From Rhabditoides inermis (lineage: Eukaryota > Nematoda > Chromadorea > Rhabditida > Rhabditidae), in the NCBI GenBank assembly GCA_963966185.1, contig CAWZYM010000328.1, forward strand, positions 124,001 to 188,000: a DNA stretch of 64,000 bases, given 5' to 3'. Under the pieces are notes generated by a model. The model worked only from the letters and a program-made list of their open reading frames with translations. It was not told where the DNA came from and did no database searches. This document shows positions 15,701-20,398 of the stretch, piece after piece. Position 1 is the stretch's first letter. Each line of letters opens with the position of its first letter. A program made the translations under genes and the position numbers.

Positions 15701-18700
15701 ATGTCGGCGTGCTTGATCCCCAGCTTCTCCCCCCACAGCGCCCAGTACTGTCCGTAGCGAGGAGCTCCCTTCGATGTCACTGCTGACTTCGAGTGAGTGG
15801 GGAATCCCCTCATCTACAAAAACAAAACAATTACAATAAAACAACGAAACGATACATTCAAATACAAAAAAAACATAATGTGTATGATGTACCTTCGTGA
15901 CGGGGATGCCGCCCTTGACTGTCTCGTTGCTGTAATTCACAGACGCAAAGGCGACCACCGTGTTGTACATGATGGCCTCCTTCCGGATGTCACTACAACA
16001 ATGGATTGGCAATGTGTCTGGATGCATGTGTGTTGTGTTGTGACTCACAATCTTCGCACGAGCTGGAGGAACTTGGGCGGGAGTCGCTGGAACTTGGGCG
16101 GTCTGTAGAGTCCGTTGTGGCAGCACTGGATGCGGGGAGACTCCTTCTCGAATCGGAGGGCGCCGCAGTGCCTGCACTCCACCTTCATGTCGCCCACGTC
16201 GTAGTACGACACGTCCTGCGGGTTGCCCAGTCCACTGCCAACTGAACACCAAAACATATATGAGAGAAGGAAGACAGTGAGAGAGAAGAAATAGAAAGCA
16301 ATTATGCATAAAGTAATATTGAAACGTACCGAGCTTCGATCTGTGTCGTACTTCACTACGATGTTTATTGGCCGCAAACTTATCCGAGGGAGTCACTATA
16401 AACATGCACTGTAGAAGTAAATAACATAAAATATACAACTCACGTGATTGGCTGGTCTTCGCTTTCCGTGCTCTATCGTTCTCACGACGCTTCTCGATAT
16501 TTTCTGATATATGTATATATATGTATATATATATATATATATATATATATATATATATATATATATATATATATATATATATATATAAATAATCGATACA
16601 ATTCACACATATTTTTACGCATAAATCAGTATTCTCAGATTTTAATTCATAATCATACAAAAAAGTTCACCTGTCAATCGATAAGCTGCTTTTTGTTTTT
16701 TTTCGCATTGACGACGATCTTCCGGTTTTTCTAAAAATGTATCAGAATCAAAATCATAGAAAACCAACAGACAGACATTACTGAATGGAAAGCTCACGTT
16801 TTTCTCTTTCCAATGCCTTTCTCGTCCGATCATTCTCACGACGTGTCTCCACATTTTCTAAAAGAACATACGTAGTCTACATACGTTGAAATGGTTTATG
16901 AAATGTTTGTTTCTGTTTTAATATATGTACATGCAAATCATATCACATAAGACTCTCGTTCTTTCATTTTTCTGATTCTATCGAGATCGCGACGTTGTTC
17001 CACATCTGAATGTGAATAACACGTTTGATTTTTATCAAATGAACTTTTTATATTATAATGTGTCACCTGTCTCTCGTAGTTTCATCATACGAGCACGCTC
17101 CTTCTCCTTCGTAGGTGTTTCCAATCCCTTTTCTAAACATTGTTGTTAGAAAATATATATGAACCATTAAATATGCACATACGTTCGGCTCTCTTTCTTC
17201 TTTTGTATTCGTTGTGAGCATCCTTTTTTTCCCTATTGGTCAATTTCCTGAACATAAATCAAACATTATACAATTTTAAATTAAAAAAACTAATAGTTCA
17301 ACGCACCTTCGTTTGACCAGACCAATACTATTATCACTCGCATTCAAAACAATTCTTGTATCGATAACGTTTTCTTCACTGTTCCTTAATCGAATTCTAT
17401 TTATTCTTAAACACTGATCTACTTACTTGAGTTGAAGAGTGTGAATGTCCATGGTACAAGAAACAACGCCTTCGGTACGAGTTGTACTGCGGCGTCTCTC
17501 ACTGTATTTCAATCAATTATACTTTGATCTCATCGACACATCGACACATTTGCACATATAAACAAAAACATTCTCACCCTCCCAGTGACGCTTTGCGATA
17601 GTGATCCCAGTCGTATCTCTTATCCATAGCATCACTAATCAGAATACGCAACTTCTCACAGTCCCACTCGATTCTGCAAAGAATGTAACAAATGAATACT
17701 TTGTTTGAACACATACAAAGTTGGATCATCTCCTCGGAGTATTGCGAGAATGGCACCAAAACATCGGAATCCGCAACTCCAATCGTCATGTTTCTAAAAA
17801 AAAAAACAGTACGCAAAATACTTGTTTTCATGCGGAGTAATTGTTTTCCCACCTCCCTGTTCTGCAAATCTGTGATCTGACAGTCGTAGTCAGTCTCAAT
17901 CTCTATCCGAATCACTCCATCCATCTCAAACAAATGACCATAGAAAAATCGAATCTGTTTCAGAAGATCTTGAGACGCCAACAACTGAAAGGTATGTATG
18001 TGTTATAACGGAAACGTAACAGAATAAGGTATCAGGAACTCACTTTATTGACGACCTGCTGTCTCGGTACTCTGTCGATCATCGAATCGAGGTACATAAC
18101 AGTGTGTTCAGTGGGGTTGTAACTGGAATTGATTCATTAAAGTTTGTTTTTGAAACTACATTGCCGCACACTGCGTGACACTCAATCACTGACTGAATAC
18201 GTAAACGTAACTGACAGGGCCATCACTTTGATTTTAATGATCACTTTAGAAACATAGAAACTTACTAAGTCAAAACGAAATGAGCGGTATCTATGTGGAG
18301 AACTTGCAGCACCGTATTGCCAGCATCGGGCTTGACAACATCTTCGTTGAACGCCTGAAATAAAAGGTATACTGTATTCACATGCGCAGAATCAATCAAG
18401 ACACATATCACATATCAGGATCAGCCGTACGAAATAGAGTACCTGTATCAACTGTATCATCCTCATTCCGTCGACCTGACGTCTCTGGCTGTCGTAAAAG
18501 ATCTGCTGAATGTGGGCGCACGAATAGTCGAGAAATTCACAAGCGAGAGGTTCACGGATTGTCGGCTTCAAAGAAAAAAAAACAATACGGTAAAAAAATG
18601 AGATGACATGCAAGTAACGTACTCGGTTAGATTGGTTGTCAAGTCTGTATCCGAGAGAGTTGGTGATTGGGTTAGTAGAACTGAACAAACGCCTAAAACT

Positions 18701-20398: not shown

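Follow-up and report, generated by a model that had tools for sequence, protein, structure and literature searches.

The spliced transposase gene

A stretch of 64,000 nucleotides of the Rhabditoides inermis genome (the window; positions 124001-188000 of contig C328 in the 172.6-Mb, 599-contig assembly that was searched) raises the question of whether the transposase gene of a Helitron can open with a macro domain and a C48-like peptidase, and what such a combination might do for the element. The initial annotation had proposed that splicing from 20398 to 17427 gives one open frame. This was found for the first 18 exons (20399..17427, minus strand), with GT-AG borders throughout, and the frame continued through 67 GT-AG exons in all (20399..6886, minus strand) to a stop codon ending at 6886, encoding 2535 aa with no inner stop. 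The predicted protein comprises, in this order, a macro-like domain, a C48-like peptidase, a basic linker and a complete RepHel. Since the splice sites were picked with the reading frame in view, the open frame by itself is no proof, and the proof has to come from homology. Pfam matches to Macro, Helitron_like_N and PIF1, together with the invariant residues and the hhalign result for the peptidase, support both the domain calls made earlier and their union in one frame, so the fusion of macro, peptidase and RepHel in the window is confirmed as a real observation at the sequence level.

Two linkers separate the recognizable modules. The first, of low complexity, is encoded by exons 5-11 (18623..19478, minus strand) and is open with consistent phases. 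The second, a basic repeat of the RRENDRTRKA type (16330..17501, minus strand; exons 17501-17427 to 16395-16330), belongs to no Pfam family, and a Pfam scan of aa 541-1100 matched none. A short exon of 59 bp within it (16947..17005, minus strand) was left out of the model because its donor breaks phase; skipping it restores the frame. A protein search with the spliced aa 1-610 scored 7981 candidates, none of which reached E≤0.001. The model has 66 introns, several of them full of CT/GA microsatellites. Elsewhere in this genome, other Helitron_like_N matches fall within uninterrupted open frames (1868-2852 aa).

A splice acceptor, TTTCAG (20400..20405, minus strand), ends one base ahead of the macro-exon ATG and may serve as an SL trans-splice site. 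A CAG ending 1-6 bases before the macro ATG was present in 10 of the 11 loci searched, the pattern having missed the start in the eleventh. The nematode spliced leader SL1 occurs in 368 exact copies in the genome, as against 0 for the control, which marks the host as a nematode. Trans-splicing onto the macro exon is therefore likely as judged from these signals.

RepHel and the ends of the element

The start of RepHel (14962..16241, minus strand) contains a cysteine motif, VECRHCG..IQCCHNG, and the region before Helitron_like_N, and corresponds to no Pfam family. A Pfam scan of aa 1101-2535 identified the Rep region (11519..13436, minus strand; Helitron_like_N, PF14214, E 8.5e-39) and a PIF1-type helicase (6886..9787, minus strand; PIF1, PF05970, E 4.5e-40; Pif1_2B, E 4.9e-16). 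By eye, PHIHLLLT was located in exon 12593-12456 and YIFKYIFK, with its two tyrosines, in exon 11782-11671; these are the HUH motif (HIH) and the paired tyrosines (YxxxY), respectively. According to the exon model, GSGGCGKT in exon 9434-9337 and a stretch in exon 8792-8652 of the helicase are Walker A and Walker B. The window gene hence combines Rep and a PIF1-type helicase in one protein, as Helitrons do. A Helentron-type C-terminal AP endonuclease was absent from Pfam scans of aa 1-547, 541-1100 and 1101-2535, and the protein ends shortly past the helicase.

An identical palindrome ending in CTAG, resembling a Helitron 3' end (a hairpin and CTRR), was found 14.2-15.6 kb downstream of the macro exon on the same strand in six of the nine further macro loci described below. 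In related copies (L029, L030, L036-L042) the palindrome and its CTAG were followed by TC at nine places. Most of these nine flanks continue into a shared TATAAAATTTGCTATGG-like stretch, the one at L042 being the exception, and such flanks may reflect either a preferred target or head-to-tail neighbours. No GC-rich hairpin resembling the palindrome was detected downstream of the window gene. The 5' terminus of the element, which in Helitrons is a TC inserted between A and T, was sought and not found, homology running to the edge of the DNA compared; a break at L025:1324 was considered and rejected, not being common to other copies. DNA shared in pieces with the copy on contig C444 (20520..22000, minus strand; blastn matches 22000-21343, 21840-21728 and 20744-20520) indicates that the element extends upstream of the gene.

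The macro domain

The macro domain is encoded by exons 1-4 (MGVIQW...RTTE; 19732..20399, minus strand; exons 20399-20242, 20196-20068, 19998-19877 and 19833-19732). In the spliced N-terminus, Pfam Macro (PF01661) matched aa 56-146 with 24.8 bits against a cut-off of 22 (E 2.2e-5). The ADP-ribose-binding motifs of macro domains are NAAN and GxGxDGAI. Both are lost from the macro domains of the window and of C444, NAAN being replaced by RPVQ and RPVD, respectively, and the C444 domain scored 19.8 bits, under the Pfam cut-off.

Other copies retain canonical domains. Once spliced, the copy on C98 yields a macro domain of textbook type that contains NAANVGLIPGSGIDGAI (Pfam 104.4 bits, E 4.6e-30), and NAAN and GSGIDGAI were intact, with zero stops in the first 165 codons, at all nine canonical macro loci. 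A match to solved macro structures, which had been suggested as a check, was obtained with the canonical C98 domain: a macro-domain chain of PARP14 ranked first in PDB (E 3.8e-20), ahead of bacterial deacetylase and MacroD types. For the window domain itself the match to solved structures was weak, PARP14 again being best at E 0.0092. It is doubtful that the window and C444 domains act as hydrolases. Given the loss of NAAN, the window copy may be a reader or scaffold, limited to binding or put to a changed task.

The C48-like peptidase

The CE-clan, C48-like peptidase (exons 12-17; 17578..18565, minus strand) has its histidine in AHFVL, its aspartate in YLDSM and its cysteine in DDWSCG. Nine copies, the window and eight of the 20 spliced loci, were aligned; His68, Asp85, Gln135 and Cys150 (segment numbering) were invariant in that order, and the assignment of the glutamine is less sure since its distance from the cysteine varies. 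The same genome harbours a second Helitron lineage, which is intronless and has Pfam C48 and Helitron_like_N in the same long open frames; pairwise hhalign matched the profile of the peptidase to the C48 domains of that lineage (95 % probability, E 3.6e-8). In PDB the closest match of the profile was a Ulp1-like SUMO protease, and it was weak (E 0.03). Pfam gave no C48 match in the window peptidase or in any of the nine copies scanned. The earlier Ulp1-like assignment is supported by the order of H, D, Q and C and by the match to the intronless lineage. The sole recurrent Pfam match in the nine copies, Toxin_15 (three of nine, best E 0.0012), was judged weak and set aside. An AlphaFold model of the C48 domain of the intronless lineage, built from an alignment of four rows, had a mean pLDDT of 36.5.

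The intronless Helitrons (on C34, C52, C95, C96 and, as L035, C516) reach 2852 aa and carry three Pfam C48 matches upstream of Rep in one frame. At L022:3511 an apparent second, degenerate C-terminal peptidase motif (SGCASLRALGALIAFIRGQD) precedes the intact one, and similar stretches lie upstream of the peptidase in L012 and L028, all three being copies without a clear macro domain.

Copies with and without the macro domain

Outside the window, the window macro region matched its own genome on C355, C360 and C444 only. The C444 copy (L009) is collinear with the window gene across macro domain and peptidase and into the first part of RepHel, at which point its contig runs out. The loci on C355 (L010) and C360 (L011) hold fragments of window-type macro exons without a credible peptidase or Rep match in these 10-kb loci; these are probably remnants.

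A genome-wide Pfam Macro search disclosed nine more loci (two each on C109, C410 and C409, one each on C98, C190 and C87). All nine are followed by the peptidase on their own strand at a distance of 2.9-3.7 kb, and eight have a Rep match within 15 kb. In the canonical L016, no alignment extends past approximately 165 residues and the first half of the peptidase is missing. For the remaining Pfam Macro matches of this search, the 6 kb that follow on their strand contained no peptidase. On C85, two weak Macro matches (208121-209017, minus strand; E 0.11 and 3.84) are situated 13-14 kb upstream of a Rep on the same strand, with no peptidase match.

In 10 of the 17 loci given a spliced macro search, no clear macro domain was found and matches to the peptidase and RepHel were present. 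With two macro queries, these ten copies (L012, L013, L017-L020, L022, L023, L027 and L028) scored 28-83, as compared with 30-74 for reversed controls and 792-827 over 165 aa for canonical copies; L020 (76), L012 (77) and L027 (83) were just over the largest reversed control. Nine of the ten had a Rep match, L027 being represented by tblastn matches to the RepHel start only, and in nine copies without a clear macro the peptidase exons were located 5.0-6.6 kb upstream of Rep. These loci indicate that relatives can manage without a macro domain, and by these scores the domain is confined to some subfamilies. What was first noticed in a single gene is thus part of a broader, multi-copy family.

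Selection on the cassette and its apparent exchange between backbones

Among the nine canonical loci the macro dN/dS was 0.045-0.178 in 33 of 36 pairs, the other three having a dS of 0. For the C48 peptidase it was 0.144-0.279 in 15 of 15 pairs from six loci. Purifying selection thus maintains the macro domain, at least as strictly as it does the peptidase. For the degenerate pair, window and C444, the macro dN/dS was 0.35, at a high dS.

The same pair differs sharply along its length. The cassette of macro, peptidase and basic linker (16393..20520, minus strand) is divergent, with conserved element DNA on either side. The long blastn matches between the two copies (22000-21343, 20744-20520 and 16248-13058) were 82.9-88.5 % identical, introns included, the last one stopping at 13058 because the C444 contig ends; inside 20520-16393 just two matches, of 101 bp and 265 bp, were obtained at 71-73 %. 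The macro domain had a dS of 1.51, and in the peptidase dS was saturated; over aa 725-1024, where RepHel begins, it was 0.21, and this last part was 95 % identical over 279 codons with a dN/dS of 0.17. A protein that simply evolves fast would not show an elevated dS, and for this one pair the simpler reading is therefore that Helitron backbones have exchanged the N-terminal module. A comparison of C98 with C409 in 500-bp bins favours such an exchange more mildly: identity was 80-89 % in seven of eight bins of the N-terminal part and 92-99 % in 16 of 19 bins of RepHel. As judged from these copies, the macro-peptidase cassette of nematode Helitrons is present in multiple copies, under selection and apparently exchangeable.

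Macro domains and peptidases in other mobile elements

It had been stated in the initial annotation that no macro fusion was known among Helitrons, and this needs amending. A search with RepHel found 96 proteins, among which macro domains were sought; four predicted Helitron proteins (P0077, P0078, P0083 and P0084), all from Heterodera, carry Pfam Macro, so fusions of this kind were already in databases. All four have the order Rep, PIF1, Macro and OTU match, and three of them end in a RING. The OTU match passes the curated cut-off in P0077 and P0078 and falls short of it in P0084 and P0083. By eye, NAAN is kept in P0083 and lost in P0077. These proteins of Heterodera schachtii and H. trifolii resemble the window gene in joining a Helitron RepHel to a Pfam Macro domain in a nematode host. 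They differ in that their macro domain is C-terminal to the helicase and accompanied by OTU, whereas that of the window is N-terminal and accompanied by a C48-like peptidase, and their RepHel region is 27-28 % identical to that of the window. A macro domain thus stands beside a ubiquitin-type peptidase at opposite ends of RepHel.

In a macro tree of 58 rows, for which found proteins longer than 215 aa were trimmed to the first 200 residues and may lose part of the domain, three groups fell apart from one another, a result compatible with a single origin of the three. In the RepHel tree (45 rows: 42 picked from the 96 proteins, the window and two further rows from its genome) the window was placed beside Heterodera and Globodera with a support of 96, in a join flagged as long-branch, a placement that makes it hard to assert firmly that the gain happened twice independently. 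The trees neither unite nor firmly split the origins of the N- and C-terminal macro domains. Another Helitron of this genome, on C195, clustered in the RepHel tree with Ancylostoma and Caenorhabditis (36 % of columns filled), which likewise points to a nematode host.

Full-text literature searches, whose coverage leaves out most subscription papers, returned no paper on macro-Helitron fusions, the Heterodera ones included, and a full-text search found none joining Helentron with Ulp1. Among the papers listed for Helitrons and ADP-ribosylation, none presents such a fusion in its title or at the start of its abstract. Neither macro nor OTU occurs in the accessible part of a Heterodera/Helitron paper (PMC11118728), and the accessible parts of PMC6431247, PMC4289320 and PMC9297572 contain no word beginning with macro.

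Rolling-circle proteins with ubiquitin-directed cysteine peptidases whose catalytic residues are kept are known from Helentrons with VTD and OTU deubiquitinases, and the VTD peptidases of two zebrafish Helentrons react with ubiquitin probes (PMC9741609, accessible part). According to the same part of that source, Helentrons combine VTD/OTU with a C-terminal AP endonuclease, whereas the window protein shows no endonuclease family in the three Pfam scans that cover it and carries a C48-like peptidase and a macro domain. Ulp1/C48-type peptidases are likewise fused to, or encoded with, the transposases of Ginger1 and Mutator elements, but these are DDE transposases, not rolling-circle ones, and no macro domain is mentioned for them in the accessible part of PMC2836005. 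A further parallel, with an unrelated genetic element and in layout only, is offered by coronavirus nsp3. There, the Mac1 macro domain and the ubiquitin-directed cysteine peptidase PLpro are parts of one polyprotein, PLpro being papain-like, not C48-like. Both act on Ub-ADPr marks, by different ways (PMC10810221, accessible part).

A possible eraser of host marks

Exon-level profile matches at E≤0.001 in the host numbered 14 for PARP, 10 for SUMO-like proteins and five for the Deltex C-terminal domain. Helitrons move through single strands, and PARP and Deltex enzymes might place combined Ub-ADP-ribose marks on the single-stranded transposition intermediate. In this scheme ADP-ribose would be taken off by the canonical macro domain and ubiquitin or SUMO by the peptidase; the substrate would be Rep, chromatin at the element or that intermediate, and loss of the marks would aid transposition; macro-degenerate copies such as that of the window would perhaps be readers only. 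In the accessible part of PMC10810221, Deltex enzymes attach ubiquitin to ADP-ribosylated ssDNA, Mac1 and PARP14 macro 1 strip the whole adduct from Ub-ADPr-ssDNA, and PLpro strips ubiquitin only.

Our main reading, to which a probability of about 0.5 is given, is that the window holds an intron-rich nematode Helitron whose transposase gene opens with a cassette of macro domain, C48-like peptidase and basic linker, and that this cassette would erase host marks. A role against PARP/ubiquitin-type marks is plausible in view of the PARP, Deltex and SUMO-like genes of the host, the purifying selection on the canonical macro domain and the ability of enzymes of the Mac1/PLpro type to reverse Ub-ADPr on ssDNA. 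The occurrence of a macro domain with a ubiquitin-type peptidase in two layouts, by analogy with Mac1 and PLpro, suggests that transposition intermediates may be cleared of ADP-ribose/ubiquitin marks. A wider proposal is put forward tentatively, as a possibility that we hold to be rather doubtful: nematode Helitrons would have built a mobile Ub/ADP-ribose eraser twice, as an N-terminal macro with a C48-like peptidase here and a C-terminal macro with OTU in Heterodera, each acting on the single-stranded intermediate against PARP/Deltex and the N-terminal version being swapped as a cassette, and this would be the transposon counterpart of Mac1 and PLpro.

Resistance to ADP-ribosylation is not, to our knowledge, commonly ascribed to transposons. 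The conserved macro domain beside a ubiquitin-type peptidase would point to marking by PARP, Deltex and ubiquitin as a host barrier to rolling-circle transposition, an idea that purified domains and ssDNA substrates would allow one to test directly. The divergent cassette would exemplify an accessory module with an evolution separate from that of its replication backbone. The system would also provide a natural target for Ub-ADPr marks on ssDNA, whose biological function is deferred by the authors in the accessible part of PMC10810221.

The cassette could instead serve the element's own protein, the macro domain as a binder of DNA or NAD metabolites and the peptidase as a self-processing enzyme of the polyprotein. 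Viral cysteine peptidases process their own polyproteins in this manner, the modules of the window protein are separated by long low-complexity linkers, and in ten relatives the peptidase is retained although no clear macro domain was found. Against this reading, which we regard as unlikely, the VTD peptidases of Helentrons, albeit of another family, act on ubiquitin (PMC9741609, accessible part).

It is improbable that the window copy is a domesticated host gene and no longer mobile: its long intact frame with many introns and the low dN/dS of its RepHel start relative to C444 would fit, but upstream DNA is shared with C444, and related copies are spread over several contigs and end in a common palindromic terminus. 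A very improbable alternative is that the macro and peptidase exons belong to a gene of their own, of the host or the element, which lies upstream and is unspliced to RepHel. The one exon between the modules that breaks phase, and a stop in the C444 linker in the aligner's model, would agree with it; however, the window gives one open frame of 67 exons with matching phases, the same order recurs in C444 and in eight of the nine further macro loci, and the peptidase keeps its position upstream of Rep in the nine copies without a clear macro too. The least probable reading, that the domains are captured host gene fragments carried as functionless passengers, would agree with the known gene capture by Helitrons (PMC6431247, accessible part) and with the degenerate window macro, but it was rejected on dN/dS, being largely refuted by the low values among both macro and C48 copies, by the absence of stops from the first 165 macro codons of all nine canonical copies and by the value of 0.35 that even the degenerate pair retains, though at a high dS.

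Surroundings of the gene in the window

Rfam gave 0 matches in the window at gathering cut-offs. A 2473-aa open frame at 38742-46163 (minus strand) results from reading across a 163-bp tandem array and is most likely no gene. Blocks 283-2421 and 35118-37256, approximately 34.8 kb apart, have identical tandem-repeat statistics and look like a recent duplication. Arrays of a 139-bp satellite (CTCCGCGGTCAAAG...) recur in the window (22467-25907, 34194-36944, 55586-57425 and others), one of them upstream of the transposase gene, and repeats of about 150 bp are present upstream of the macro exon in the C98 copy (L014).
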